A stretch of 64,000 nt of DNA. Source: a virus. Position numbers and translations under genes: made by a program. The first letter of the stretch is position 1; each line of letters begins with the position of its first letter. Under the pieces are notes generated by a model, which was given only the letters and a program-made list of their open reading frames with translations, did no database searches and was not told where the DNA came from. The stretch covers positions 186,001 to 250,000 of the IMG/VR virus record IMGVR_UViG_3300046660_000716; one strand, 5' to 3'. Shown here in pieces: positions 13,701-47,275 of this stretch.

Positions 13701-16700
13701 GCCGATCTTCAAGCGCCAGGGCGGCGCCTTCGGCATGCTCGGCCAGTCCCTCAAGGACGCCTTCGCCCCGCTGAAGAACACCTTCGTCGGCCCGGACGGC
13801 ATCTGGACCAGCCTCAAGAAGGGCGTCAAGGACACCTTCGCCGACCTGAAGGTCGCGATCTTTGGCGAGGCCAAGGAGGGAGAAGGCTCGCTCGCCGATC
13901 GCATCGGCGCCAAGATTTCCGACGGCATCAAGCGCGTCGGCGACTGGATGCAGGACAAGCTGAAGCCCGTGACCGAGTGGATCCAGAAGGGCGGCGACTG
14001 GCTCAAGACCAAGGTGTTCGAGCCGTTCGGCAAGTGGCTGAACGATCCCAAGTCGGGCTTCATCGTGCGCATGCGCGAGGGGACCGCCTCGTTCTTCTAC
14101 GGCAAGAAGAACGCCGACAGCGGAATGCGCGAGGGCGGCCTGTTCGGCGCCGTGAAGAAGCAGATGGACCACTTCTTCTACGGCAATCCCGACAAGGGCA
14201 CCAAGGGCTTCGTCGAGCGCGTGGTCGAGCCAGCCAAGAAGTTCGTGCTGGAAGAGATCTGGAACCCGCTGAAGACCAAGGTCAGCGACATGTGGGACGG
14301 CACCAAGCAGTTCTTCAAGGACGAGATCCTCTCGCCGCTGAAGGGCGTGATGGAGCCGTTCGTCACCGAGGCCAAGGAGCAGTGGCGCCTCCTGAAGGAG
14401 TGGGTCAAGGGCCCCCTGTGGGAGACCGTGAAGGGCGTCGGCGCGCAGATCGACGGCGTGTTCAAGAACACCTTCGGCACCGGCCTGTCCGAGATGCTGC
14501 GCAAGAACGTCCTGGATCCGATCAAGGACGCGCTGAGCAGCGTGCAGAAGTTCCTGGGAACGGCGCTGAAGTCGGTCCTGAAGCTGCCGGTCAACATCCT
14601 GCGTGGCGCCGCCGACGAGCTGAAGGCATCGCAGATCCGCCGCGGGATCGCGGGAGGCATGTCGCAGGCCGAGCGCGAGCGCATCATCCGCGAGAAGGGC
14701 ATCGATCCGGCAACTATCCCCGCTGGCTCCGGTTCCAGCCTGCGCAATCGGGCGGCTCCGGGAGTCGCCGGTGCGAACCCTGCTTCCCCTGGAGGCCCTG
14801 CCGGCCCTGGCGGTTCGGCGGCTCCCGGCGTGCGCTCGGCGGGCGGCCCTCAGTCGGTCGCAGCCGGTTCCCCAGGTTACACGGCTCCGGGCGTAGCGGG
14901 CTCTGCTGCCGCTCCCGGCGGCGTGCGCCAGGCTGGCGCAGCGGGCGCTCCGTCGGTTTCCGGCGGCGGCCACGGCAGCGTGGGCTCCCCGTCGCACCCG
15001 GACTCCGGTTCGGCAACGATGGCCAAGCCGCACGATATCGACAAGGCGATCATCGCTACAGCTGACAACACCCACAACATCTACCAGTTTGTCAGCAAAC
15101 ACCTGTGGGGCGTGGGCAAGAACGTCGAGCGTATCGTCGACCACTTCAAGATCCAGGACATCGCCACCGGCGGCAACAGCTCCGACCGACGCCCTTCCGG
15201 CCTGCTCGGCAAGCTGCGCAAGCTGATCACGAACCCGCTGGGCTTCGTGCGCGACGTCGTGACCGGTGCCTTCGACTACATGCGCAAAGCCGTGTCGAAG
15301 GTGTTCGACGCAGCGAAGGGCCTGATCATGGTCCCTATCAAGGGCCTGATCAAGGGCTTCGAGCTGCTGAATAAGACGTTCGGCGTGATGCGCAAGATGT
15401 TCGGCGAGATGGCCGGCATGGCCAAGGATCTGATCGTCAACACGCTGGGCGGCGCCGCCAAGGTCGCGGGCACCATCCTGCGCGAGACGGCGAAGGCCAC
15501 CAGCACCGCGTTCGTGTCGATCACCAAGGCCATTCCGGCCGTGGTCTCGTCCATCACCAGCGCCTCCGTCAGCATCCTCAAGGCGGGCGGCCAGATCCTG
15601 GGCGCGGCCGCCAAGATCGTCGGCTCCATCGCGACCACCCTCGTCAAGATGGCCGGCGCGATGATCACGACCGCGGTCAAGGTGACCAAGGACATCGTGA
15701 CGGGCCTGGCCCGCATCACGTTCGACGCGATCGGCACGGTCGTCGGCACCATCACGGGCCGCGGCAAGAAGAACGCGCGCGGCAAGCTGACCCCGGTCTA
15801 CGTGGTCGGCGGCTACCTGGCCGGCACCACCGGCGGCGCCAAGTCGCTGGAGGAGGCCGAGGCTGGCGGCGGCATCCGCAAGGCTGTGAACCGCGTGACG
15901 GGCGCGATCGGCGACGCCGTTGACAAGGTGAAGAATGGCTTCCAGGCGGTCAAAGATCGCATGAGCGCCAAGGACACCGTGACCAACGACGGCAAGTGGA
16001 AAGCCCGCCTGCTGTCCGCGGGCGAGAAGTCGCGCGAGGCGCTGGCCGGGATCGGCAGCGGCATCAAGTCGTTCGGCTCCTTCCTGATGAGCGCGATCCC
16101 GATGGTCATCTCGGGAATCGGCGCGCTGGTGTCCTTCTTCACCCAGGGCAAATTCATCTCCATGCTCGGCAGCCTGCTCAAGGGCAACGTCGGCGGCATG
16201 CTGAAGGGCGGCGCCGGGATGGTGATGGACGCCGGCAAGGGGCTCGTCGGCAAGATGGGCGGCCTGAAGGGCGTGGGCCTCGCCGCGGGCGCCGGCCTGA
16301 TCGGCACGGGCGTCAACGCTCTGGCCGACAACTACATGGACGAGGGCGTAGGCAAGAAGATCGTCAAGACCGGAGGCACCGCGCTGCAGTACGGCGCGAT
16401 GGGCGCGACGATCGGCTCCGTCATCCCGGGCGTGGGCACCGCCGTTGGCGCAGGCGTGGGCGCGGCGATCGGCGCCGTGGTCGAGAACTGGGACGACATC
16501 GCCAAGGCCGCCAAGGCCCTGGGTGAGATGATGTGGTCGCTGCCCAAGAAGATCCTGGGCTTCTACGAGGACGCCGGTAAGTTCCTGCTGGACGGCATCA
16601 AGGCGATCCCTGGCATGCTGCTGGACGGCCTGAAGGCCATGGTGGGCCTGGGCTCGCAGGCTGCGGACGGCGTGAAGAGCGCCGCCTCCAGCGCGTGGGA

Positions 16701-18387
16701 CTGGATCTCGGGCGGTTCGTCGTCTGACGCTCCGGTCGAGAACCGGGCGGAGGGCGGTCCGCTGGGCTCCAAGGCCACCATGGTTGGCGAGCTCGGTCCG
16801 GAGGTCCTCAACCGCAGGGGTGAGGTCATCTCCGGCGGCCGTCAGGGTGGCAAGTTCAGCAATCCATCGCTGGTCAAGGCCGCCCAGGGCCGCGAGGACT
16901 CGGTCTCCGAGATTCTGCGTCGCATCTCCACCAACACGCTCTACAGCGCTCGCGCTCTGGAGGCGATCGTCAACGGGTCCGGCTTCGGCCCGCTCGAAGA
17001 CGACGACTCTGTGGAGTTCAAGCCGCTGAAGAACGTGCGCAGGCCGTCCAACTCGGGCGGCGGCGGGGGCTCCTCGTCCGGCGGCATCATGGACAACATC
17101 GGTGAGCTGGGCCGGACCATCGGCCAGGGCGCATCGAGCGTTGGCCACGCTGCCTTCGGTGCAGCCAAGAACGTCGGCTCGAAGATCATGTCGGGCGACT
17201 TCTCCGGGGCCGCGAGCAGCGCCTGGAGTGGTCTGAAGAGCGTTGGCTCGGCGATCGGCCAGGCCGGCTCGGCCATCGGCCAAACGTCCATCGGCTCGGC
17301 CATCACGGGCTCCGGCAGCGAGGGTCAGAAGGCCCTGATGGACGCCGCTGTGAAGGCTGGCATCACCTCTCCGACCGAGCAGGCGATGTTCCTCGCACAG
17401 ATGGACACCGAGTCGGGCGGCTTCCGCAAGCTGTCCGAGAGCTTCGCCTACAGCCCGGACAGGCTGGCGGCCGTGTTCCCCAAGTACTTCAAGTCCCCAG
17501 CCGATGCCGCGCAGGTGGTCCAGCAGGGTCCTGAAGCGATCGCCGAGAAGGTCTACGGCGGCCGGATGGGCAACAAGGACCAGGGCGACGGCTTCAAGTA
17601 CCGCGGCCGCGGCTACATCCAGCTGACCGGCAAGGCGAACTACGAAGCGGCGGGCAAGGCGCTGGGCATCGACCTCGTCGGCAGCCCGGACCTGGCGGCC
17701 GATCCGGCTACGGCGGCGGCGATCGCCACGTGGTTCTGGAAGAGCCACGGCATCTCCGGTCCGGCGTCGAAGGGCGACGTGGCAGGCACCACCAAGATCA
17801 TCAACGGTGGTGAGAACGGCCTGTCGGACCGCCAGGCGAAGTACACTGGCTATCTAGCCAAGCTGCAGCAGGCGCCGACTGGCGGGACCGCGGAAGCGAA
17901 CCCGCTGAAGACGGCCATGCTCGGCGGCTGGATGGGCGACTCGCCGACCCTGGTGGGCGAGCGCCAGCCGGAGGTGCTGTCGCCGGACGGCCAGATTCAC
18001 CCGTCCGTCGACGCGTACCTGAGCTCCTCCAGCGCCGACCCTTCCAGCCTCGCCGTCAACACGGCGGTCAAGGAGGCGGTTCGTCGCTCCGGCGCCGGTC
18101 CCGACAACGCAGGAGCCAACGACGCGATGAGCAAGATCGCGGCGGCGGCTGGCGGCGGAGGGATGGCTCCGGAAGCGATGGAGCTCTTCACGAAGATGCT
18201 GGAGGCGCTGAACGCCGTGGCAAACAACACCGCCGGGATCTCGAACCTGGTGGCCGCGGCGCCGCAGGCGAACAGCCCCGTAGGCATCGACGCATCGAAG
18301 CAGACCAAGAACGTCTTCACCCTCGGCAGTGCAGCGCCTCGCGGCGACGGCATGAGCCCGATGATGGAGCGGCTCGCGGTAGGCTAA
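10780..18387 (+). CDS. Tail tape measure protein with C-terminal GH19 lytic domain
   Basis: 2535 residues from GTG 10780 with AAGGA seven bases upstream. Very long, Ala/Gly/Lys-rich and largely helical, with hydrophobic segments around residues 1560-1650 and 1770-1900, typical of tape measure proteins that set tail length and pass through the inner membrane. Residues about 670-1150 hold imperfect tandem repeats built on 'LFG...GG-FG'. Residues about 2180-2365 match glycoside hydrolase family 19: a Glu in 'MDTESGGFRKLSE' near 2211, 'KYRGRGYIQLTGKANY', and a C-terminal NGG-DR segment. This domain would cut peptidoglycan during DNA injection. The 2166-codon antisense frame is a shadow. Confidence 0.93.
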   Translation: MASILRYAGNVGRSAAYALPQIIKGRLPSVHALTSQFTDKGQRENTVDAFREMKGILKEDVLGLMRKGLDNANKELKSGKFHQTEAEQNASFDSSMGFDAGAFDNSFLEEHGSTNAADSGTARVAAAAAAEGASAGVAAAAARMGDSPAARVGAQASVATAKFSRASLGAQMAVGNMLKGAIMANAQVLSQMHKFQVTTQHQFYRQQLEHNMAMAGMTSELISQIRDLRSSSNVAAAASDQIMQAFTGKQSDFSRVFDSKGGMDVGAYLGVINSRFKKSVGDGSMFKMMGNSIAAAPLAAAFSRTLEALIPKNFGKQLEQFNDFASKLGTVLNQRARHVAGGLRGSNSAGKRGLGKVLEFFSIDAPTSAAGPDLSRQVRGKAVAFDGYAHRSIVEVIPSHLADIHAELVAQRRAKGIADPTDRKLYDFKTGRFSSEKASRQAHEKRVDRESIAHFDRVHRAIGDGGDRQTAADLKEAFKVLRNDQFSVKKGSSADLGGQIDSLAQRLRTQGKGAEADKLLKARDKIVKAREKHGARFSYELQTAVNRSDASRSKAYDGIENEEGVHRMMYSGGIYDAESQRDGGRLDIGGGRGRGGRGGNRRRRGGPGPGPAPSGNPLDSVLPTGDAQGFEKGASDQKLFRDATGKITLKSILQTPMVLASKAMNTLETKISGVLFGDGTGQRAGLFTRMNRMLMGDVDPTTGRRTGPLGRMVDFVKKDIFGPLKKAMVGDPSDPASQATSIVGTTKRWFREAVDSGKKFLFGDRTEAEDGTVTRKGGLFGGVVNYFSGKSKQLKDYLLGKGDDGKNPGLLVNLKEKFTGMVDRMNKSLFGTKDADGRRSGGVFGDGIQKGKDFMVSLWDKFQEKAVQPLGKLLFGEVGADGKRSGGAFGSAWQKGKDFVSNLGAQVSTSIIKPMQVALFGKGTTVDDGFGNVTYKGRGIFPTLGDTLKTSVIAPMMTSLFGEKQYKGMDASGKPIFKRQGGAFGMLGQSLKDAFAPLKNTFVGPDGIWTSLKKGVKDTFADLKVAIFGEAKEGEGSLADRIGAKISDGIKRVGDWMQDKLKPVTEWIQKGGDWLKTKVFEPFGKWLNDPKSGFIVRMREGTASFFYGKKNADSGMREGGLFGAVKKQMDHFFYGNPDKGTKGFVERVVEPAKKFVLEEIWNPLKTKVSDMWDGTKQFFKDEILSPLKGVMEPFVTEAKEQWRLLKEWVKGPLWETVKGVGAQIDGVFKNTFGTGLSEMLRKNVLDPIKDALSSVQKFLGTALKSVLKLPVNILRGAADELKASQIRRGIAGGMSQAERERIIREKGIDPATIPAGSGSSLRNRAAPGVAGANPASPGGPAGPGGSAAPGVRSAGGPQSVAAGSPGYTAPGVAGSAAAPGGVRQAGAAGAPSVSGGGHGSVGSPSHPDSGSATMAKPHDIDKAIIATADNTHNIYQFVSKHLWGVGKNVERIVDHFKIQDIATGGNSSDRRPSGLLGKLRKLITNPLGFVRDVVTGAFDYMRKAVSKVFDAAKGLIMVPIKGLIKGFELLNKTFGVMRKMFGEMAGMAKDLIVNTLGGAAKVAGTILRETAKATSTAFVSITKAIPAVVSSITSASVSILKAGGQILGAAAKIVGSIATTLVKMAGAMITTAVKVTKDIVTGLARITFDAIGTVVGTITGRGKKNARGKLTPVYVVGGYLAGTTGGAKSLEEAEAGGGIRKAVNRVTGAIGDAVDKVKNGFQAVKDRMSAKDTVTNDGKWKARLLSAGEKSREALAGIGSGIKSFGSFLMSAIPMVISGIGALVSFFTQGKFISMLGSLLKGNVGGMLKGGAGMVMDAGKGLVGKMGGLKGVGLAAGAGLIGTGVNALADNYMDEGVGKKIVKTGGTALQYGAMGATIGSVIPGVGTAVGAGVGAAIGAVVENWDDIAKAAKALGEMMWSLPKKILGFYEDAGKFLLDGIKAIPGMLLDGLKAMVGLGSQAADGVKSAASSAWDWISGGSSSDAPVENRAEGGPLGSKATMVGELGPEVLNRRGEVISGGRQGGKFSNPSLVKAAQGREDSVSEILRRISTNTLYSARALEAIVNGSGFGPLEDDDSVEFKPLKNVRRPSNSGGGGGSSSGGIMDNIGELGRTIGQGASSVGHAAFGAAKNVGSKIMSGDFSGAASSAWSGLKSVGSAIGQAGSAIGQTSIGSAITGSGSEGQKALMDAAVKAGITSPTEQAMFLAQMDTESGGFRKLSESFAYSPDRLAAVFPKYFKSPADAAQVVQQGPEAIAEKVYGGRMGNKDQGDGFKYRGRGYIQLTGKANYEAAGKALGIDLVGSPDLAADPATAAAIATWFWKSHGISGPASKGDVAGTTKIINGGENGLSDRQAKYTGYLAKLQQAPTGGTAEANPLKTAMLGGWMGDSPTLVGERQPEVLSPDGQIHPSVDAYLSSSSADPSSLAVNTAVKEAVRRSGAGPDNAGANDAMSKIAAAAGGGGMAPEAMELFTKMLEALNAVANNTAGISNLVAAAPQANSPVGIDASKQTKNVFTLGSAAPRGDGMSPMMERLAVG
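12790..14230 (+). repeat. Imperfect tandem repeats within tape measure gene
   Basis: Encodes about ten degenerate units of roughly 45-60 residues, each with an 'LFG' or 'FFYG' motif, a basic Asp/Gly-rich loop, then 'GG(V/A/L)FG' and a helical segment. Examples: 'SLFGTKDADGRRSGGVFG', 'LLFGEVGADGKRSGGAFG', 'FFYGKKNADSGMREGGLFG'. Unit length was judged by eye. Confidence 0.7.
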
Positions 18388-31448: not shown

Positions 31449-31985
31449 ATGGACCACGCAGCAATCAACGAAGCCGCGGAATGCATCGGCCTGGGCATCG
31501 ATCCGGACAACGAAATGCTGGACGAGATCGACGCACTGGACGAGGCCGGCGGAATCGTATCCTGGCTGGCGCGCGCCTACACGGGCAAGGACAAGGACCT
31601 GCCCGCCGAGATCGAGAAGGAGCTGGAGAGCATCAAGACGAAGGAAGCCAAGGAGAAGATGCTGGCGGACATCGACGACTTCATCAAGGAGGCCGAGGCG
31701 TCCGCCGCCACGAACGCGATGGACAAGCGGGCTCCCAACGACCTCGGCAAGGGCTTCGCCATGCCCGGCAGCGAGAAGTACAAGGCTCGTATGGCCTGGA
31801 TGCGCAAGAACGCGCACACCAACGCGCTGGGCGTCGGGCACGGCCAGTACGGCCACCACCTCGCGGCGGGCGCGGTCGGCAACATCGTCAAGCGCATCAA
31901 TGCCCTCGACGGAACGATCGACAAGTACATCGCCGAGCTGAAGAAGGTCCGCGCCAAGGTGGCGGCCCACAAGGTGGAGGGCTAA
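31449..31985 (+). CDS. Paralog family member B with soluble insert (178 aa)
   Basis: GGAG before ATG. Leader longer than in the other members, with 'ECIGLGIDPD' and then 'DALDEAGGIVSWLAR' (possible cleavage after Glu of LDE). Shared blocks 'LPAEIEKELESIKTKEAKEK' and 'YIAELKKVRAKVAAHKVEG' flank a unique hydrophilic insert of about 75 residues rich in His, Lys and Gly. It lies nine bases from member A. Confidence 0.75.
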   Translation: MDHAAINEAAECIGLGIDPDNEMLDEIDALDEAGGIVSWLARAYTGKDKDLPAEIEKELESIKTKEAKEKMLADIDDFIKEAEASAATNAMDKRAPNDLGKGFAMPGSEKYKARMAWMRKNAHTNALGVGHGQYGHHLAAGAVGNIVKRINALDGTIDKYIAELKKVRAKVAAHKVEG

Positions 31986-35442: not shown

Positions 35443-36588
35443 CTAGTAGCCTTCCCCGGCGTAGAGCAGCTCCAGGGAGAGCCGGCCCTCGAAGAAGGTT
35501 GCGTTGGTCTTCTCGATCTCAGCCAGCCCGCTGCGGTTGATCAGCTGGGTGTCGATCTCGGACATCGCGCTGGATGGGATGGTCGAGGCGTAGTCCTGGT
35601 GAACCAGGAGCTTCCAGGCCAGCGCGGCGGCCTCGTTCTTGCCCTCGTCCAGCCCGCCCTCCTCGGACAGTGCGGCGAGATTGGGCGACCCGCCTGGCAT
35701 CCGGCCGAGCCCGACCTGCTTGGCGATGTGCTTGGCCGCCTTGGACATCCCGAACTTCGGGATGCCGGGAACGCCGAGGTCGTCCTCCCCGGCCATCGCC
35801 AGGGTGTAGAGGTAGTGGCCGGGCTCCAGCTGCGCGGCGACCTCCTCGCCGGTCTTGGTCTCGCGGAGTGCCTCGCTCATGATGGTGTCCCGCGTTATCA
35901 GCCGCGAGTGGTCGCCGGACGCGCGCAGGACGGCCCACTGGTAGCCCTCGTTGCCGCTGTTGCCCGGTCCCAGGGCGTACTGCAGGTCGGCCGCCCACGA
36001 GCTCAGGACGATCGCGCTGCCGTTCAGCCGCCCCTCGGAGGCCAGCGCCCAGGGCCACGGCTCGGGGTCCACGGCCCCGGTGTCGACGAGGTGGAGGTGC
36101 GGGATGAACTGGGCGACCTTCTTGGCCGTCTCCAGGTTGAAGTTCACGTAGTTGCGTATTACGTCGAATTCGGGGCCGGCGCCGCCGATGCGCTTGGCGT
36201 ACATGTTGGACTTGAAGTCCGGGTTGAGCGCGAGCTTCTCCTCGCACTTCTCGGACGAGTAGTACATGATCACGGTCGTGCGGCGGCCGTAGTGCTTGAA
36301 CGCGAAGTTCCGGTAGTGCCCGCCCACGTTGAGGAGCTCGGCCGCCAGCTGGCGGGGGTGGCGGTTGAACTCGCCGCGCGTCAGCTTGGCCACCGCGTGC
36401 TCGCTGAAGAGCTGGCGGAGGATGGTGTTCAGGTTGACGAAGAAGTACAGCTCGTTTTCGGGATTCTGCGCGCTGATGAACTCACCGAGGACGTCGTGGA
36501 GGATCTCGTACCTCGGGCGGCGGAGTCCGATGAGCGGCCCGAGAGCAGAATCGCTCTCGGGCACACCGTAATTGCGGCTCGATGACAT
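35443..36588 (-). CDS. Unknown protein (381 aa) with RBS in a hairpin
   Basis: Start placed at ATG 36588 (second Met) because AGGGA lies six bases upstream; ATG 36594 is too close to it. Mixed alpha/beta composition with 'YGRRTTVIMYYSSEKCEEK' and 'AKKVAQFIPHLHLVDTG'. No membrane span or targeting leader. A strong inverted repeat overlaps its ribosome binding site. Function unknown. Confidence 0.65.
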   Translation of the reverse strand: MSSSRNYGVPESDSALGPLIGLRRPRYEILHDVLGEFISAQNPENELYFFVNLNTILRQLFSEHAVAKLTRGEFNRHPRQLAAELLNVGGHYRNFAFKHYGRRTTVIMYYSSEKCEEKLALNPDFKSNMYAKRIGGAGPEFDVIRNYVNFNLETAKKVAQFIPHLHLVDTGAVDPEPWPWALASEGRLNGSAIVLSSWAADLQYALGPGNSGNEGYQWAVLRASGDHSRLITRDTIMSEALRETKTGEEVAAQLEPGHYLYTLAMAGEDDLGVPGIPKFGMSKAAKHIAKQVGLGRMPGGSPNLAALSEEGGLDEGKNEAAALAWKLLVHQDYASTIPSSAMSEIDTQLINRSGLAEIEKTNATFFEGRLSLELLYAGEGY

Positions 36589-36591
36589 TTT

Positions 36592-36624
36592 CATTCCCTG
36601 TATCTCGTTGATGACAGGGGAATG
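36592..36624 (-). promoter_or_regulatory. Inverted repeat sequestering RBS/start of the 35443 gene
   Basis: CATTCCCCTG and CAGGGAATG pair around a 14-base loop in the mRNA. The downstream arm contains the ribosome binding site and the first ATG, so the hairpin could block translation or bind a regulator. Confidence 0.5.
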
Positions 36625-36655: not shown

Positions 36656-37042
36656 TTACTTGTCTTCGATCTTGATCGCATTGACGCGCGCTTCGAGTTT
36701 GTCCATCGCTTTGATGTACTCTTCGGTCGTGCCGTTGTTCTTCTTGATCAGGCGCCCGACGATCCCCAGCACGACCCACATCGGTCCGATCAAGAAGGCG
36801 GCCAGCTGACCCCCCGTCAGGGTCTTCGCTTGCTTCCTGAACTTGGCGATGTCGGCCAAAATACGATCCTTGTCCTTCTCGGTGCGGATCTTCTTGATCT
36901 CTGCCTCGATGTCGTCCGGCAGGCTGGTGTCCGAGCCGCTCAACCAGCGCGTCAGCCAGGATACCAGGCCGCCGGCCTCTTCCAGGTTTTCCATGTCGAT
37001 CGCGTCGGCGCCCTCGGTGAAGACGATGTTAGTATCCAGCAT
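36656..37042 (-). CDS. Paralog family member C with membrane insert (128 aa)
   Basis: AGGAG before ATG 37042. Leader ends 'AIDMENLEEAGGLVSWLTRW' (possible cleavage after residue 22). Shared middle 'LPDDIEAEIKKIRTEKDKD' and C-terminal block 'YIKAMDKLEARVNAIKIEDK' flank an insert with one likely membrane segment, 'AAFLIGPMWVVLGIVGRLI'. Opposite strand from members A and B. Confidence 0.75.
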   Translation of the reverse strand: MLDTNIVFTEGADAIDMENLEEAGGLVSWLTRWLSGSDTSLPDDIEAEIKKIRTEKDKDRILADIAKFRKQAKTLTGGQLAAFLIGPMWVVLGIVGRLIKKNNGTTEEYIKAMDKLEARVNAIKIEDK

Positions 37043-37084
37043 TGCGTGCTCCTGATTGTCGTGTTACGTGGTTGTTGGAATGGG

Positions 37085-37918
37085 TCAGGTGAAGAACACG
37101 TCGTCGCCCACGACGACGGCCTCCCCCAGGGCGCCCTTTGGAAGGATGGCCTTCCAGAACACGCCGCCGAAGGCATTGTTGAGCACGTGGATCAGGATGG
37201 CGATCACGTAGGTCGCGCGACCGGCCTCGTCCTTGCTTTCGCCGGACAGCACGCCCTTCTGGTAGCCCCACTTCTGGAGCGCGCCAAGGAACTGGTGAAA
37301 CACCGCCAGCGTGCCGCGGATGGCGACCGCGACGCCCAGCTTGATCCCGGCCTTCAGCATCATGCTGACGTAAGAGGTGAACTCGTACGTGTTGATGAGC
37401 ATGGTCAAGGAAGCCAAACCCTCGCCCTGCTTCAGCGCCTGGCGGCGGGCGCTCTCCTCGACGATCGGGGCCACGAAGACCGAAGTGACCATCATGGCTG
37501 CCTGCGGACCGAGAAACACGGAGAACAGTGTCATGGCGAACGTGTTGACGATCAGGATCAGGAGGAACAGCATCAGGCCAGCGCTGAACTCGTTGCCGTC
37601 CGAGATGCCGTTGTACATGGTCACGAAGGTCTTCACAAAGCTCTCGTGCATGATGCCGGCCACCTGCCCGATGTCCGCCTTCGGATCTGAAAGCAGGGGC
37701 GCGACGGTCGTCGCCAGGCCGGAGGCAGCCGCGCGGCACTTGGTCAGCATCTCCTCCACGTGAAAGCCGGCCGCCTTGAGCGCAGCTTTGGCTTCCTCCA
37801 TGCAGGAGTTCATGCTAGCCTCGGCCGCCTCCACGCCGGCCTTCGAGCTCACCATCTCCATAAGGAGGCCCACGTTGACGCCCTCGATCAGGGCGGCCTG
37901 TTCAGCGGTGATGATCAT
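37085..37918 (-). CDS. CPBP/CAAX-type intramembrane protease homolog, possibly head-packaged (277 aa)
   Basis: Several membrane spans. Motifs of the CPBP (ABI, CAAX) family are in order: 'APIVEESARRQAL' gives EExxxR (Glu154, Glu155, Arg159); 'AVFHQFLGAL' gives a His (208) in a predicted membrane helix; 'AILIHVLNNAFGG' gives HxxxN (His244, Asn248). These residues form the metal site of such proteases. The first 12 residues end in 'AALIEGVNVG', a possible L-I-E/G prohead cleavage site. Sits between tagged cassette genes. Membrane cleavage of host proteins at infection is inference. Confidence 0.65.
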   Translation of the reverse strand: MIITAEQAALIEGVNVGLLMEMVSSKAGVEAAEASMNSCMEEAKAALKAAGFHVEEMLTKCRAAASGLATTVAPLLSDPKADIGQVAGIMHESFVKTFVTMYNGISDGNEFSAGLMLFLLILIVNTFAMTLFSVFLGPQAAMMVTSVFVAPIVEESARRQALKQGEGLASLTMLINTYEFTSYVSMMLKAGIKLGVAVAIRGTLAVFHQFLGALQKWGYQKGVLSGESKDEAGRATYVIAILIHVLNNAFGGVFWKAILPKGALGEAVVVGDDVFFT

Positions 37919-37921
37919 GGG

Positions 37922-39364
37922 CTAGTACTCCGCTTCCGAGGTGGCGGCCTTGTCGAGCAGGTCCCGGACCTTGGCCTTCAGCTGGTCGACGTTCTGGTTG
38001 TACTCGTCGTTGTCCCACTTCTTCGACAGCACCTTGTCGCGCAGGGCCGCCAGCTCGCGGATGGCCTCGCCGGTGCGCACGCTCATCTCCTTCGCGGCGT
38101 CGTCGCTGCCGGTGGCGCGCTGGAACCACGCCGCGCTGTCGTGGACGAACGCCTGGAACTTCGACGGACTGTGGCGGATCTGGACGAGACGCTCCAGCAA
38201 GCGCACGATCTTGGTGATGACCAGGCGCTGCTGCTCGGGGGTGGAGATGTCCTTGGCCTCGGCGGCCAGCTCCTTGATCTCCTTCTCCATGTTGCCGGTC
38301 GCCAGGTTCTTGACGAAGGAACCCAGACCCTCGTGCAGGTACTCCTTCGACTCGCTGTAGGCGATGCGGAGCGCGTCGGGGTTCACCTCGCGGGCCTCGA
38401 CATCGATGCCCTTGTCCGACACGGCCCGCAGGCAGGTCATCATGAACACGGACACGTCCTGGTAGCCTGCTACGGTGCCGCGCACAAGCGCGTTGTGGAA
38501 CTGCACCACGTCGTTGCCCGCACCGCGCAGCTTGTCGACGACGCTCTGCGGGTTGCTGAAGCGCTGGCGGTTGGACTTCAGGCGCGACTTGAGCTCCATG
38601 AACATGCCGGCGATCTTCTCGCCCGGCTGACCCTTCTGCAGCTCGTCCATGTCCTTGGTGATCATGGCGATCTTCAGCACGGCGGACTGGTAGGCTGCCG
38701 AGGTGATCTTCTGCTCGGCTGTCTGCCCCAGGTACCAGTACTCCTTGCCTTTCTCGTTCAGGGTGTCTGAGTCGTAGCCGCCCTTGTTCGCGGTGCGGTT
38801 CATGATCTCGCGCACGGTCTTCTGGAAACTGACGATGGGGTGGCCGAAGCTCATGAAGGCGGTCTCTGCCTTCCAGAGGGTCACGAACGCTTCCTCGTAG
38901 TCCTTGACCGCCGCACCCGCCATTGTGGCGCCGCACATGACGTGCACGTCAAACGCGCGGTGGTCGGTCGGATGCACGAAGCCGGGCTTGCGCAGCAGCT
39001 GGCCGCACGTCATGCCAGGCTCCTCGGAGCGGTCCACTGCGGCCGCGCCCAGTCCGTCGGCGGCGCGGTGGAACATCGAGCGGTCCACACCCTGGGCCTC
39101 GGCCGCCGGGATCTTGGAGTTGTACTTGCCGCGCAGCATGTCCCAGGCGCGGCGCAGGAAGGCCACGACCTTGCGGACGAACTCCTTCAGCCACTGGATG
39201 ATGTGGTCGATGAGCTCGCCGATGGCGAACTCGTTCAGCACGGTGTTCTCGGTCAGGCGGCTGAAGAGGTCGTCGTACTCGCGGCGGGCGGACTCGCAGA
39301 TGGCGTCGATGCCGGCCAGGATCTCGGAGTCGTTCTCGCTCAGCTGGGTGAGGGTCAGGATCAT
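37922..39364 (-). CDS. Helical protein with amphipathic helix and leader-like N-terminus (480 aa)
   Basis: Leader contains 'AGIDAICESARREYDD' (possible I-C-E/S cut after residue 24) and further L-S-E, L-T-E and I-G-E sites. Residues 47-80 form an amphipathic, Trp/Phe-rich basic helix, 'IIQWLKEFVRKVVAFLRRAW'. The rest is long charged helix. Three bases separate it from the protease-like gene downstream. Architecture resembles the 33027 and 40548 proteins. Inferred internal head protein. Confidence 0.7.
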   Translation of the reverse strand: MILTLTQLSENDSEILAGIDAICESARREYDDLFSRLTENTVLNEFAIGELIDHIIQWLKEFVRKVVAFLRRAWDMLRGKYNSKIPAAEAQGVDRSMFHRAADGLGAAAVDRSEEPGMTCGQLLRKPGFVHPTDHRAFDVHVMCGATMAGAAVKDYEEAFVTLWKAETAFMSFGHPIVSFQKTVREIMNRTANKGGYDSDTLNEKGKEYWYLGQTAEQKITSAAYQSAVLKIAMITKDMDELQKGQPGEKIAGMFMELKSRLKSNRQRFSNPQSVVDKLRGAGNDVVQFHNALVRGTVAGYQDVSVFMMTCLRAVSDKGIDVEAREVNPDALRIAYSESKEYLHEGLGSFVKNLATGNMEKEIKELAAEAKDISTPEQQRLVITKIVRLLERLVQIRHSPSKFQAFVHDSAAWFQRATGSDDAAKEMSVRTGEAIRELAALRDKVLSKKWDNDEYNQNVDQLKAKVRDLLDKAATSEAEY

Positions 39365-39388
39365 GTCGATCTTTCTTGTTGGTTTACG

Positions 39389-39949
39389 TTAGAGGCCGAG
39401 CGCGACCTCGTCGTCCGTGGCCTCCGCGATGGCGCGCTGCTTCACGCTGCCGATCTTGGTCACCAGGTAGTCATGCAGGCGGCCGGACGCCACGAGCTTG
39501 GCCCTGCGGCGCTTGCAGACGCCCTGCGGCGTGGCCATGGCCGGCACGGTGAACGCGCGGCGCAGACCGGCGATGACGCACGCCTGCTCGACGAATTCGG
39601 AGCAGAAGCGAGCCTCGTCGGACTGGATCGGCATGCCCAGGGCGATGCCGATGGTGCCGCGGTAGGAGAAGCGGAAGCCGGACTTGGACATCTCCGTCAC
39701 GAACTTGCGAGCCGAGGCGAGACCGGCCGGCTCGACTTCGACCTCATAGAGCTCGAACTCGGTCCAGGATGGCCACTCTTCCTTGGTCTCGCGGACGAAG
39801 CCGTCCTTGCCCATGTTGAACGAGTAGCACTCGGCCAGGCCGGGGTCGAACGAGATCGAGGCGTGGTTGAATCGCTCGCCGGTGATGGCGGTGATGATGT
39901 GCGAGACGGGCTTCTTCGTGTTGGTGGCGAGGAGGTAGATGCTCGCCAT
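39389..39949 (-). CDS. YiiX/NlpC-P60-like (permuted papain fold) hydrolase with C-terminal tag (186 aa)
   Basis: Residue pattern of circularly permuted NlpC/P60 enzymes: His29 in 'FNHASISFD', then aromatic strands 'ECYSF' and 'FELYEVEVEPAG', and Cys116 in 'ARFCSEFVEQACVIAG', where YiiX-type proteins have a catalytic 'CSExV'. Such enzymes cut amide or ester bonds in peptidoglycan peptides, lipids or proteins. The C-terminus 'AIAEATDDEVALGL' has an I-A-E/A cleavage-like site and the ELGL-type tag also seen at 41275 and 59515. Suggests packaging in the head via a C-terminal signal. Confidence 0.65.
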   Translation of the reverse strand: MASIYLLATNTKKPVSHIITAITGERFNHASISFDPGLAECYSFNMGKDGFVRETKEEWPSWTEFELYEVEVEPAGLASARKFVTEMSKSGFRFSYRGTIGIALGMPIQSDEARFCSEFVEQACVIAGLRRAFTVPAMATPQGVCKRRRAKLVASGRLHDYLVTKIGSVKQRAIAEATDDEVALGL

Positions 39950-39952
39950 GGC

Positions 39953-40537
39953 TCACTCCACCTTCATCGCTGCCACGTCGTCGCGCACAAGCTGCAGGGC
40001 GGCCACGTACTTGTCGAGCGAGCCCGAGTAGCGGTTGACCGTCTTCAGCGTGATGGCGATGATGCCCAGCGAGATGGCGCCGATCGTCAGGCCCTGGACG
40101 GTGCCGTTCACGATCGTGCCGAACTGGGACGCCTTGTTGGCGGCGTCGGCCAGCTTCTGCTTGGTCTTGCGGAAGAAGATGTCCTTGACGACGGGCGCAT
40201 GCATGCCGGAGGCGGACACCGCTCCGGCCGCCGCGCCGAGGATCGCTCCGGCCGCGCCGCCGACGGTGCCGATCCCCAGCGAGTTGAGCGCGTCGCCGAG
40301 CAGGCCGTTCTTCTCGGCCATGCGCGCCTCATCGAGGAAGTCGTCAATCTCGTCCAGCGCGCGGCGCTTGTCGTCCTTGGTCTTGATCCGCGCCATCTGC
40401 TCGCGGAGCTCGTTCACCAGCGCGTTGTCGACGTTGCTGAAGGCGCGCTTGATCCAGGAGATCACGCCGCCGGCCTCTTCGAGCGGCACCAGGCCCATCT
40501 CGATGCAGGCGTCCTCTTCCAGGATTTCGTTTGCCAT
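39953..40537 (-). CDS. Paralog family member D with glycine-zipper and membrane insert (194 aa)
   Basis: Leader 'CIEMGLVPLEEAGGVISWIK' is almost identical to member A. Shared middle 'LVNELREQMARIKTKDDKR' and end 'YVAALQLVRDDVAAMKVE'. The insert of about 110 residues has a Gly/Ala-rich zipper, 'GGAAGAILGAAAGAVSASG', and a membrane-like span, 'LTIGAISLGIIAITL'. Overlaps neither neighbour but is separated from both by ten bases or fewer. Confidence 0.75.
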   Translation of the reverse strand: MANEILEEDACIEMGLVPLEEAGGVISWIKRAFSNVDNALVNELREQMARIKTKDDKRRALDEIDDFLDEARMAEKNGLLGDALNSLGIGTVGGAAGAILGAAAGAVSASGMHAPVVKDIFFRKTKQKLADAANKASQFGTIVNGTVQGLTIGAISLGIIAITLKTVNRYSGSLDKYVAALQLVRDDVAAMKVE

Positions 40538-40547
40538 GTGCTGCTCC

Positions 40548-41252
40548 TTATTCGGTCGCGTTGGCGAGGTTGTCGTCCGCCTGCATGGCGGCGGCCAGGA
40601 TCCCGCGGTACGCCTGCATCGCGGTGCTGATGAGGCTAAGGTACGTGCGCTCCACGTCGCTGTAAACGCTCGGTACGGCAGCGCGCAGGTTGGACTTCTC
40701 GACGAAGCCGGTCGTCTGATCGACTATCGCCTCGATCTTCTCCCATCCGTCGTGCGCCTTGTCCAGCACGTTCCCCAGCCGATGCCTGTAGCTGGCGCGC
40801 CCCGTCGGCGTGACGATCGTGGTCGGGATCGGGCGCGCGAAGCGCTCGATCGACAGCGTGATCTCCGTGCGGGCGCGTGCGAGGCCCGCCACGTCGCGAT
40901 TCACCAGCTGCGAGGTGGCCTGGACGGCCCATTTCTGAATTGCCTCGAACACGCGCACCAGGTTGGTGACGTTGTCCGACATCACGACCGGATCCGGCAT
41001 GCGTGCTTCGCCGGGGGCGGTGGCATCCTTCTCGGCCGCGGCTGCCTCATCGGGCGCAGCGCGCTTGCGGCGCATGATCATGTCGACGATGCGCTTCATG
41101 AAGTTGACGATGCTCCGCCAGACGGCGTGGATCATGTCGCCGGCCGAGCTGGCTTGGGCTTCGACCAGCGCGACGTTGAAGTCGTCGAGCAGGGAGGACA
41201 GCGTGTCCTGCTCGTACAGGCCGAGCTCCATGTAGGTTTCTTGGATCAGCAT
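40548..41252 (-). CDS. Tagged helical protein with amphipathic segment (234 aa)
   Basis: N-terminus 'ETYMELGLYEQ' carries the ELGL-type tag and 'NVALVEAQASSAGD' a possible L-V-E/A cut after residue 31. Next comes an amphipathic basic helix, 'VWRSIVNFMKRIVDMIMRRK', then a disordered Ala/Glu linker and a helical domain. Fits the same plan as the 33027 and 37922 proteins. Inferred internal head protein. Confidence 0.7.
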   Translation of the reverse strand: MLIQETYMELGLYEQDTLSSLLDDFNVALVEAQASSAGDMIHAVWRSIVNFMKRIVDMIMRRKRAAPDEAAAAEKDATAPGEARMPDPVVMSDNVTNLVRVFEAIQKWAVQATSQLVNRDVAGLARARTEITLSIERFARPIPTTIVTPTGRASYRHRLGNVLDKAHDGWEKIEAIVDQTTGFVEKSNLRAAVPSVYSDVERTYLSLISTAMQAYRGILAAAMQADDNLANATE

Positions 41253-41274
41253 TTGGCGCTTTCTTGATTTGTGA

Positions 41275-41733
41275 TTAGAGCCCGAGCTCGATCTCCGCGG
41301 CCTCGTAGACCTGGATCTGGGCCGGGTAGACGGCGACGAGCTTGCCGCCCTTCTGCGACTCGGTCTTGGCCGGCGCGTCGCCGCGCGGCTTGGTCTCCGG
41401 GTCGGTGATGGATGTCTCAGGGCGGCGATCGATCTGCACGTCCATGTTGCCGCCGGAGAGGGTCTGCTGCGTGACCTGCGTGGCGCCGTCGCCGCCGGCG
41501 TCCGTCACGAGCAGGGTGATGTGGCTGGCCTCGTGCACGACCTTCGCCGTGGCGTCGGCATCGGCGTTCTTGGCGTGCTTGCCGAAGATGACCCACGCCT
41601 TCGCGTACAGGATGCGCGCCCAGTTCTGGCCGTAGCGCTTCTTGAACTCCGGCTTGTTCTTGAGGATCCATTCCTCAGCTCCCGGTGCGTCCGGCGCGGC
41701 CTCCAGCAACTGCTGGATGTTAGCGGCGATCAT
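41275..41733 (-). CDS. Doubly tagged small protein (152 aa)
   Basis: N-terminus 'NIQQLLEAAPDAPG' offers an L-L-E/A cut after residue 11; the C-terminus 'QVYEAAEIELGL' repeats the tag at the other end. The middle has a basic aromatic segment, 'WARILYAKAWVIFGKHAK', and a hydrophilic Thr/Asp/Pro-rich linker. ATG overlaps the upstream stop (ATGA). No family recognised. Confidence 0.7.
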   Translation of the reverse strand: MIAANIQQLLEAAPDAPGAEEWILKNKPEFKKRYGQNWARILYAKAWVIFGKHAKNADADATAKVVHEASHITLLVTDAGGDGATQVTQQTLSGGNMDVQIDRRPETSITDPETKPRGDAPAKTESQKGGKLVAVYPAQIQVYEAAEIELGL

Positions 41734-42014
41734 GACGTCGAGCTGATGAACTCGAGCTTCTCGGCCGGGATGGCCTCCGGCTCGGGGTAGAACTTCGTCG
41801 CGGCGCGGTGCGTGTAGGCGGCGTAGCCGACCTTCTCACCCTTCTTGTCCTCGAAGTACATGACGGTGCAGTCCAGTTTGGCCTGCGGCACCTTGAGGCG
41901 GCCGGACTCCTCGCGGGTCAGGCTGCGCCGCTTGTACTTGTCCCACCAGGCCGCTTCGGTGAGGGATTCCAGGTCGGCCTCGATGGCTGACTCGACCAGC
42001 AGTTCGTTGTCCAT
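41730..42014 (-). CDS. Small tagged protein (94 aa)
   Basis: Leader 'LLVESAIEADLESLTEAAWW' includes L-V-E/S and L-T-E/A sites, the latter after residue 20, like the paralog leaders. The mature part is a small basic/aromatic domain. Translationally coupled with the 41275 gene. Function unknown. Confidence 0.7.
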   Translation of the reverse strand: MDNELLVESAIEADLESLTEAAWWDKYKRRSLTREESGRLKVPQAKLDCTVMYFEDKKGEKVGYAAYTHRAATKFYPEPEAIPAEKLEFISSTS

Positions 42015-42015
42015 C

Positions 42016-42789
42016 TCAGTGCCTCCGTTTCGATTCGGTTATGTCCTGCTGTTCCAGTTGGAGCTTGATCTGGGCCAGCTTGTCCATGAGGTCGCCGTAG
42101 TCGCGGTCCTCGGTCTTGACGTACGCGTAGCCCGACGTCTCCAGCACGGCGTCCTTCGCGTGCTCGATTGCGATGTCCCGGCTCCTGTACCCTGGGTGGA
42201 GCTCGCCCTTGACCTCGATGATGAGGTTCAGGGATTCCAGGTAGCAGTCCGGGATGTAGAATCGCGTGCGGCCGTTGTCGTCCTGGTACTGGAAGTTCTG
42301 CGGGGCCGGGCAGTGGACGTCCTGGCCCGGCCATCCCAGCGCCTCGTCGAGGAACTTGAGCAGCGCGAGCTCCTCCTGGCCGGTGTAGGTTTTCTCCGTG
42401 CCGTCCGCGAACGAGTACTTGCCCGAGATCGAGCGGCTCGCCAGCATGATGCGCTGCTGGTCCGGGTCGTCGAGCAGGTGGTCCTTGCCGTGTACGCGGC
42501 GCATGCGGTCCAGGAACATCTGCCTGTACTGCTGGCGCTCCTGCTCGCTGGCGAAGCGCTCGTACCGCCCGGCTTTCTCGTTCCAGTCGGTGTCGCGGCC
42601 GCTCATGACGCTCTTGCCCTTCTTCGTGCCGAGCGGCAGTCTGTTCCTCGCATTGAACATGAGCTGGCGGGCGCTCACGCCGAACTTGTCCAGGTCCGCC
42701 GCGTTGTCCCGCTCGATGGCGGTCTCGCATGCCGACGCGCCCATGTACCGGGCGCCGGACAGAGGGTTCTTGTAAGCTCCTCCTGCCAT
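42016..42789 (-). CDS. PD-(D/E)XK-type nuclease-like protein (257 aa)
   Basis: ATG 42789 chosen because GGAGA lies seven bases upstream. The C-terminal domain has 'RFYIPDCYLESLNLIIEVKG', matching PD-x(n)-E-x-K of restriction-like nucleases (Asp, Glu and Lys all present), followed by a helix and a strand with 'SGYAYVKTEDRDYGDLM'. The N-terminal half is basic and helical. It heads the long minus-strand operon that holds most cassette genes. DNA target unknown. Confidence 0.65.
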   Translation of the reverse strand: MAGGAYKNPLSGARYMGASACETAIERDNAADLDKFGVSARQLMFNARNRLPLGTKKGKSVMSGRDTDWNEKAGRYERFASEQERQQYRQMFLDRMRRVHGKDHLLDDPDQQRIMLASRSISGKYSFADGTEKTYTGQEELALLKFLDEALGWPGQDVHCPAPQNFQYQDDNGRTRFYIPDCYLESLNLIIEVKGELHPGYRSRDIAIEHAKDAVLETSGYAYVKTEDRDYGDLMDKLAQIKLQLEQQDITESKRRH

Positions 42790-42903
42790 GTCGTTCTCCA
42801 TTCGGTGTTGTGTCAAGGTTTTGTTCCCTTCCATCCACTAGGCTGAGCGGTGCCTCGCGGCCAGAGCGCAGGGGTGAACAGCAGGGTGTGACATCGGAGA
42901 AGT

Positions 42904-45460: not shown

Positions 45461-47275
45461 ATGAACGACAAGCTCAGCATTCGCCCGGCAGCGGGCAGCC
45501 ACCTCGAAGCCGCTACCACCCTGGTAGCGCAGCACAATGCAAACAAGGCTGCGGACGAGGTGGCAGCGGCGCCGCTGCCGAAGATCACCAAGCCTGCGTT
45601 CGAGGGTCCACGCAGCAACGTGGTGGCCGGCGACGCGCACGCGGTGGCGATCCGCTCGGCGCTGAACACGATCGCTCGCATCGTGGGTCGCACCCTCGGC
45701 CCGCATGGCTCGAACACCCTGGTCCGCTCCGAGAGCGGCTCGCACTTCGCGACCAAGGATGGCTACACCGTCTTGCAACGCACCACGTTCGTGCAGGAGA
45801 TCGCCACGATGGTCCTGGACCACGTGCGCTCGGTCAGCCGCACCATGGTGCGCAAGGTTGGCGACGGCTCCACCAGCGCGGTCGTCATGGCGGACTCCCT
45901 GTACGACACCATCATCGACACCTCGGTGCTGCGCGACTTTCCGCCCGGCGCCGTCCAGGCCGTGCTGTCGGCCATCGCCGACGTCCTGGTGGAGAAGATC
46001 CGCGAGCGCGGCACCAGCGCCATCTGCGCGGCCGATCTGCTGACCGTGGCGACCATCTCCGCCAACAACGATCCGGCCATCGGCGCCCTGATCGCCAACG
46101 CCTACGAGGCGGGCGGCGAGGAAGCCAATGTATTCGCCGAGATCGGCACGGGCGACCGCACCGTCGTGCGCAAGGAGCCGGGCTACCGCGTCATGCGCGG
46201 CATGGTCCACGAGGCGTTCGCCAACGAGGTCAGCGCCGAGGGCAGCCGCGCCACGCGCTGCCGCCTGCACGACGTCCGCGTCCTGATCTACGACGGCACC
46301 GTGGACCAGTCCACGTTCAACACGCAGATCGCCCCGGTCATGAACGGCTGCATCGAGCTCGGCGTCGCGTTCGCGCTGGTCGCGCGCGACTACGGCGACG
46401 ACGTGGTGAAGATCGTCGCCGAGTTCATGCGCAAGAGCCCCGGCATCAAGCTGGTCATGCTCGACCACGCCGGCGCCACCCGCCGCGGCATGGCTCGCAT
46501 GGGCGACCTCGCGGCCGTGCTGGGCACGACCGTCGTCATGCCGGGCACCAAGATCGACGAGGACCGCCTGGGCTTCGCGGCCGAGGTGCGCTCCGGCCCG
46601 AGCGACACGGTGTTCGTGCTGGCGGGCCAAGGCACGGACGTGGCCGAGCGCGTGGCTCAGCTGCGCGAGCAGGCCGACCGCATGGACATGAACAACCACG
46701 ACGAGACCCAGGCCGACGAGATCGCAGAGCTGCGCGCCCGCATCCGCGCCATGCTGGGAAGCGAGGTCACGATCTCGGTCGGCGGCGCCACCGAGCAGGA
46801 GAAGCAGGCCCTGCACTACCTGATCGAAGACTCGATCCTGGCCGTGCGCGCCGCGAACCGCTCCGGTGTGGTCGAGGGCCTGGGCATGACGGCGCAGCGC
46901 GTGCTGGCGGACAGCTCGTCCGACGTGGCCGTCGAGAGCCTGAAGATCGCCGCGACCCGCACCTCGCTGGGAATGGGCCGCCTATCGGGCCTGGTAGCAC
47001 ACATGATGGTGGCCGTCCAGGCAGCATACCTCGCGGCCTCCTCCAAGGTGCTGGAGAACGCGCACCTGGATGCCGGCGAAATCATCGGCACCTGCCTGCG
47101 CGACGGGAAGTGCTTCGACGTGATGACCGGCGAGTACACGGTCGGCGCCACCGTTCTCGCCCCCACGGACACCGACGTGGAGGTCCTGCGCGGCGCCATG
47201 TCCATCGTGAGCCTGCTCGTCAGCAGCAACCAGACCGTCCTGATCCGTCCATCGGCCGGCCTGGGACTCGACTAA
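45461..47275 (+). CDS. groEL: Phage-encoded GroEL-like chaperonin (group I)
   Basis: 604 residues, ATG after AGGGA. Core motifs of GroEL are present: 'RIVGRTLGPHGSNTLV', 'FATKDGYTVL' (Asp100, equivalent to E. coli Asp52), 'KVGDGSTSAVVMADS' (Asp135, equivalent to Asp87), 'LIEDSILAVRAANRSGVVEG' (Asp equivalent to 398) and a C-terminal equatorial segment. All three ATPase Asp residues are kept. It has about 47 extra N-terminal residues and lacks the GGM-rich tail. No GroES gene is nearby, as reported for chaperonins of some giant phages, which may work alone or with host GroES. Likely folds phage proteins. Confidence 0.88.
   Translation: MNDKLSIRPAAGSHLEAATTLVAQHNANKAADEVAAAPLPKITKPAFEGPRSNVVAGDAHAVAIRSALNTIARIVGRTLGPHGSNTLVRSESGSHFATKDGYTVLQRTTFVQEIATMVLDHVRSVSRTMVRKVGDGSTSAVVMADSLYDTIIDTSVLRDFPPGAVQAVLSAIADVLVEKIRERGTSAICAADLLTVATISANNDPAIGALIANAYEAGGEEANVFAEIGTGDRTVVRKEPGYRVMRGMVHEAFANEVSAEGSRATRCRLHDVRVLIYDGTVDQSTFNTQIAPVMNGCIELGVAFALVARDYGDDVVKIVAEFMRKSPGIKLVMLDHAGATRRGMARMGDLAAVLGTTVVMPGTKIDEDRLGFAAEVRSGPSDTVFVLAGQGTDVAERVAQLREQADRMDMNNHDETQADEIAELRARIRAMLGSEVTISVGGATEQEKQALHYLIEDSILAVRAANRSGVVEGLGMTAQRVLADSSSDVAVESLKIAATRTSLGMGRLSGLVAHMMVAVQAAYLAASSKVLENAHLDAGEIIGTCLRDGKCFDVMTGEYTVGATVLAPTDTDVEVLRGAMSIVSLLVSSNQTVLIRPSAGLGLD

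Follow-up and report, generated by a model that had tools for sequence, protein, structure and literature searches.

A probable divergent PrsW-type intramembrane protease encoded in a gene cassette of a jumbo phage distantly related to AR9 and phiR1-37

The gene at positions 37085-37918 of the window, by which we mean the whole 64,000-nucleotide stretch of viral DNA analysed here, probably encodes a divergent PrsW-type intramembrane protease belonging to the superfamily of type II CAAX proteases, PrsW and APH-1, and we put the probability of this reading at roughly two in three. Enzymes of this superfamily cleave a membrane protein with water that is activated within the membrane by two glutamates together with histidine and asparagine residues on adjacent helices; PrsW of Bacillus subtilis, for example, is the site-1 protease of the anti-sigma factor RsiW. 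PrsW in phages is not without precedent, since we found proteins of the canonical type in two uncultured huge phages. What is new is a divergent PrsW-like branch that has an additional N-terminal region and occurs in a phage of the AR9/phiR1-37 type, as well as the location of its cassette near virion-protein genes and, in one relative, its joining to a papain-like protein. In the literature we found no jumbo phage reported to encode a PrsW or CPBP protease, and two broad accounts of such phages make no mention of PrsW, CAAX or intramembrane proteases.

The open reading frame is a real gene. It starts with an ATG 3 bp beyond the stop codon of the upstream gene, and its GC content by codon position (0.59/0.40/0.89) is of the coding type. 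The protein is predicted to consist of a helical N-terminal region of ~105 residues followed by a five-helix membrane core. The IMG/VR record that contains the window has 259,338 bases and a GC content of ~66%, and the host is probably a high-GC organism. Conserved neighbouring genes are ~21-29% identical to those of Yersinia phage phiR1-37, Bacillus phages AR9 and PBS1 and Staphylococcus phage S6, which identifies the source as a jumbo phage distantly related to these. The features discussed below are as follows.

36656-42014, minus strand: eight-gene cassette holding the PrsW-like gene, delimited by flanking genes that abut in the relative contig L012
37085-37918, minus strand: PrsW-like gene, 277 aa (open reading frame, codon GC pattern, PF13367 match with an ordered second match, homologue)
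37133-37597, minus strand: membrane core, residues 108-262, five predicted helices (AlphaFold2 model, APH-1B match)
37442-37459, minus strand: E154-E155-S-A-R158-R159, an EExx(R/K) motif in the second core helix, identical in the homologue and aligned with EExxK of PrsW
37370-37384, minus strand: E179-F180-x-x-Y183, probable counterpart of ENxxY of PrsW (hhalign and alignment A9)
37295-37318, minus strand: R201-x6-H208, counterpart of R-x7-H of PrsW, in the helix before the last, invariant in the 36-sequence alignment A7
37175-37189, minus strand: H244-x3-N248, an HxxxN/D motif on the final helix of the core; the homologue has the same residues, and H244 does not vary among 36 sequences
37922-39364, minus strand: next gene upstream, 3 bp away, for a helical protein of 480 aa whose N-terminal part includes an amphipathic stretch
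39389-39949, minus strand: small papain-like protein, the probable partner gene (phrog_1128, joined frame in contig G006)

The motifs named in an earlier sequence-only reading of this gene are all present (E154-E155-S-A-R158-R159, H208 in a hydrophobic segment and H244-V-L-N-N248), and all are identical in the sole homologue, which lies on contig G006 and shares 39% identity. That protein keeps E154, E155, R158, R159, E179, Y183, R201, H208, H244 and N248, whereas the non-motif residues H53, H91 and N247 differ. Within the core, residues 146-219 are 58% identical between the two proteins, compared with 26-35% elsewhere, and E154, E155, R201, H208, G218 and H244 are invariant in alignment A7. 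That the motif residues are kept at 39% identity while other histidines drift suggests selection on the motifs, and the pattern of conservation in the G006 protein is the strongest single piece of evidence for it. Two of the correspondences with PrsW are looser. The E179-F-x-x-Y183 stretch, in which no Asn follows the Glu, is kept in the homologue, and alignment A7 places this stretch otherwise; the spacing of R201 and H208 is one residue off that of PrsW, an offset that also appears in an 87-sequence PrsW profile and in alignment A9.

Relatives of the gene are rare. Single-sequence searches of phage, plasmid, viral-contig and genome-contig collections returned no homologue; G006, a 64-kb contig, was reached only via a conserved baseplate-like gene, and scans with a profile of the phage pair and with the papain-like partner returned G006 alone. 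A protein search among related IMG/VR contigs also found the gene in G006 only. PF13367, the Pfam model of PrsW, had no match in AR9, BpSp, S6, LPJP1 or phiR1-37, which places the gene outside the set conserved in phages of the AR9/phiR1-37 type. Candidates obtained with the pair profile in 398 genomes of one bacterial phylum were weak partial matches and were taken as chance.

A Pfam scan of 24,736 families matched PF13367 to residues 114-158 (E=5e-4, 20.1 bits against a curated cut-off of 23.5), and a PF13367 search of the phage record added a weak second match in the right order at about residues 190-253. Because the cut-off was not reached, we file the protein as a PrsW-like divergent relative and not as a curated member of the family. 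The G006 homologue had no Pfam match at all, and NCBIfam gave no match at E<=10 for the PrsW-like protein. The sequence-only reading had taken the protein for a CPBP (CAAX-type) homologue and had proposed an HMM search against that family. Its placement in the superfamily of type II CAAX/CPBP, PrsW and APH-1 proteins is supported by sequence, conservation and a partly circular structure, but PrsW describes the specific family better than CPBP: no CPBP model was among the Pfam matches listed at E<=1, PF13367 was the sole meaningful match, the motif spacing is near that of PrsW, and the histidine before HxxxN is PrsW-like. PrsW-like is thus the better label, although the CPBP spellings EExxxR (E154 E155 ... 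R159) and HxxxN (H244 ... N248) are both present.

The spacing from E154 to H208 and on to H244 is 54 and 36 residues, compared with about 63 and 37 in 39 PrsW proteins, and the stretch between E155 and E179 is ~14 residues shorter than its PrsW counterpart. In the published anatomy of PrsW, EExxK lies in TM3, an extra His absent from CAAX proteases in TM5 and HxxxD in TM6 (PMC4602095); E154/E155, H208 and H244/N248 sit on predicted core helices 2, 4 and 5, in agreement with this arrangement. Our PrsW reference set comprised 87 sequences. A Bacillus PrsW sequence served as a search probe only, and the hits used from it were annotated PrsW or matched PF13367. The profile built from this set matched two ordered stretches of the phage protein, with R201 against R. 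In an hhalign comparison of the phage pair with PrsW, the EE pair, E179, R201, the GY stretch and H244/N248 were in register, at a low probability of 2.8% and a score reached by 1-7 of 150 shuffles. When 907 open reading frames were scored with a four-block PrsW profile, the phage protein and its homologue ranked directly below the true PrsW proteins (29.3 and 28.2, with the best unrelated frame near, at 27.9), and 4-5 of 1500 shuffles reached this score.

From the single sequence, AlphaFold2 gave a model with a pLDDT of 50 and no useful fold match. Residues 108-262, modelled from 12 alignment rows including the homologue and 10 bacterial PrsW proteins, reached a pLDDT of 90.5 and a pTM of 0.82; the 10 PrsW rows bias this core model towards the PrsW fold, and it is therefore partly circular. 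Its best solved match, in a second-look alignment, was the gamma-secretase subunit APH-1B (140 residues, 3.3 A) with a Z of 9.8, which is within the range of helical bundles without a clear match, where Z values below about 13 are not decisive. APH-1 is a eukaryotic scaffold subunit of gamma-secretase and not its catalytic subunit. It is also a relative of PrsW and the CAAX proteases (PMC4602095). The best match among viral structures was a CAAX protease family protein. Foldseek returned no significant E-value for the core model (best about 0.9), and a PDB sequence search with the PrsW-like protein gave nothing convincing. Rce1, the solved CAAX protease, was absent among the fold matches listed, which does not exclude a likeness to it.

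Set beside the PrsW family, the phage protein has EExx(K/R), a probable counterpart of E..xY, R..H and HxxxN/D in the same order and a matching order of helices, and its core folds confidently with PrsW rows. It differs in its PF13367 score below the cut-off, in the shorter stretch between EE and E179, in having, at the place of the first membrane helices of PrsW, an extra helical N-terminal region of ~105 aa, and in its setting, a phage cassette with, in one relative, a papain-like domain in frame. The canonical phage proteins are encoded by the uncultured huge phages LR745206 (635 kb, L037:2755-3480) and LR756502 (642 kb, L038:2689-3423), with PF13367 matches at E=7e-18 and 2e-17, respectively. 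They are likewise phage-encoded and of the same family, but they lack the N-terminal region, and their genes lie beside glycoside hydrolase genes, with a peptidoglycan-binding GH19 gene and a GH16 gene coming right after them.

The cassette is flanked by a DUF7487 endonuclease gene (42016-42834) and by a gene at 35443-36594 that is conserved in AR9-type phages. In L012 nothing lies between these two genes, so the cassette differs between lineages. The product of 39389-39949 matches phrog_1128 (E=8.5e-9) and has N28-H29-A-S and F115-C116-S-E-F stretches like those of a permuted papain-like (NlpC/P60-type) enzyme. It is 54% identical to its counterpart in G006 (L031:7455-7970), which shares the NHAS and FCSEFV motifs and keeps H29 and C116. 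It had no Pfam or PDB match, and we describe it as resembling the papain-like family. In G006, the PrsW part follows the homologue of this gene in frame within one open reading frame of 465 aa, the two being separate genes in the window; an SD-like AGAGAG precedes the internal ATG of the joined frame, so separate translation is also possible. A partial homologue of the 480-aa helical protein is encoded upstream of the joined frame. The equivalent cassette of G006 also encodes a Ferritin/Dps-like protein (L030:13468-13971, PF00210, E=8e-12).

What is established is the gene itself, the conservation of its motifs, its sequence relation to PrsW and its compatibility with the fold, whereas catalysis, membrane location, substrate and partnership are inferences. 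As we picture its action, the membrane core would consist of the last five helices, and E154/E155, H208 and H244/N248, lying on adjacent helices, would make up the active site. Water activated there would then cleave another protein within a membrane-spanning or membrane-proximal peptide, while the helical region at the N-terminus, up to about residue 107, may bind a partner or substrate. The site of action would most likely be the host inner membrane. The target could be a host membrane protein, either a stress or defence sensor or an obstacle to entry, or else a membrane protein of the phage; a host inner-membrane protein is our most natural guess. The papain-like protein of the cassette probably acts together with the PrsW-like protein. 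A search of the literature found no published account of the activity of a phage PrsW.

The PrsW-type reading draws on the double PF13367 match, the profile of 87 sequences, the hhalign register, motif conservation, the block test and the core model, together with the APH-1B and viral CAAX fold matches, the papain-like join in G006 and the helix order of PMC4602095. Against it stand the PF13367 score under the cut-off, the homologue without a Pfam match, the hhalign probability of 2.8%, the circularity of the model, the weak Foldseek and Z values and the E155-E179 stretch ~14 residues short of PrsW. An alternative is a catalytically inactive PrsW/APH-1-like membrane scaffold that retains the fold and serves as a channel or docking platform for the entry of DNA, polymerase or protein. 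The best structural match is to a non-catalytic gamma-secretase subunit, PrsW domains have been proposed as membrane conduits (PMC3482391), and the cassette lies near phage structural-protein genes. However, the catalytic-type residues, including both Glu, are kept at 39% identity while other His drift, which suggests selection, and we consider this alternative unlikely. A strict CPBP protease of the Rce1/Abi type, serving as an immunity or superinfection-exclusion factor, would share the superfamily, account for the EExxxR and HxxxN spellings and agree with the name of the best viral structure match. The absence of CPBP models among the Pfam matches listed at E<=1, compared with 5e-4 for PrsW, the PrsW-like spacing and the His placed, as in PrsW, in the helix before HxxxN make it very unlikely. 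The least probable case is that a holin-like or structural multipass membrane protein, unrelated to PrsW, resembles it by chance: every statistical link is modest taken singly, but the ordered double PF13367 match, the motif conservation in the homologue, the block test and the structure agree, and the scores are seldom reached by shuffled controls.

A more elaborate version, the full model of the sequence-only reading, adds packaging to the divergent PrsW-type protease and is compatible with it: the prohead protease would process the enzyme at residue 12, and the head would then carry it until ejection, when it would enter the host membrane at once. The region does hold homologues of AR9 virion proteins g213-g215 (genes 27335, 29257 and 31989) and, in gene 42016, of phiR1-37 g237, which is annotated as an endonuclease and phage structural protein, and an L-x-E-G-V string near the N-terminus is common to the PrsW-like protein and its G006 homologue. 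The string proposed as a cleavage site at residue 12, A-L-I-E|G, has L-I-E and does not fit the prohead-protease motif A-X-E measured in phage SPN3US (PMC10052503). The cassette proteins resemble the virion proteins of AR9 and phiR1-37 in having helical, amphipathic stretches at the N-terminus, with weak statistics: the best one-to-one comparison reached E=0.004 (gene 33027), and profile comparison of the PrsW-like protein itself with the AR9 and phiR1-37 virion proteins found no resemblance. Moreover, virion proteomes are not known to include any homologue of the PrsW-like protein, and a multipass membrane protein inside a DNA-filled head would presumably need shielding. The protein may be packaged in the virion and enter the host along with the DNA, while the full model strikes us as rather unlikely. 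Quite doubtful, too, is the scheme in which an active PrsW-type protease and its papain-like partner are packaged together and delivered to the inner membrane at infection, opening a path or disabling a membrane-anchored sensor.

If the PrsW-type reading is true, the phage would have a little-studied means of attacking or remodelling the host membrane, and could inactivate or redirect membrane proteins of the host, for example anti-sigma factors or membrane-anchored defence sensors; an alternative use would be the processing of the phage's own entry machinery. The in-frame papain-like join in G006 gives a hint of a module of two enzymes directed at the envelope.

Several other genes of the window deserve mention. 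Three paralogous small proteins (31449-31985, 36656-37042 and 39953-40537) share an EAGG[VL][IV]SW stretch, with E down to 2e-20, and flank conserved genes on both sides as an expanded family. The gene at 10780-18387 is a 2535-aa open frame with no PHROG match in its first 740 residues, and that at 45461-47275 encodes a chaperonin GroEL-like phage protein with 28% identity to its AR9 counterpart.
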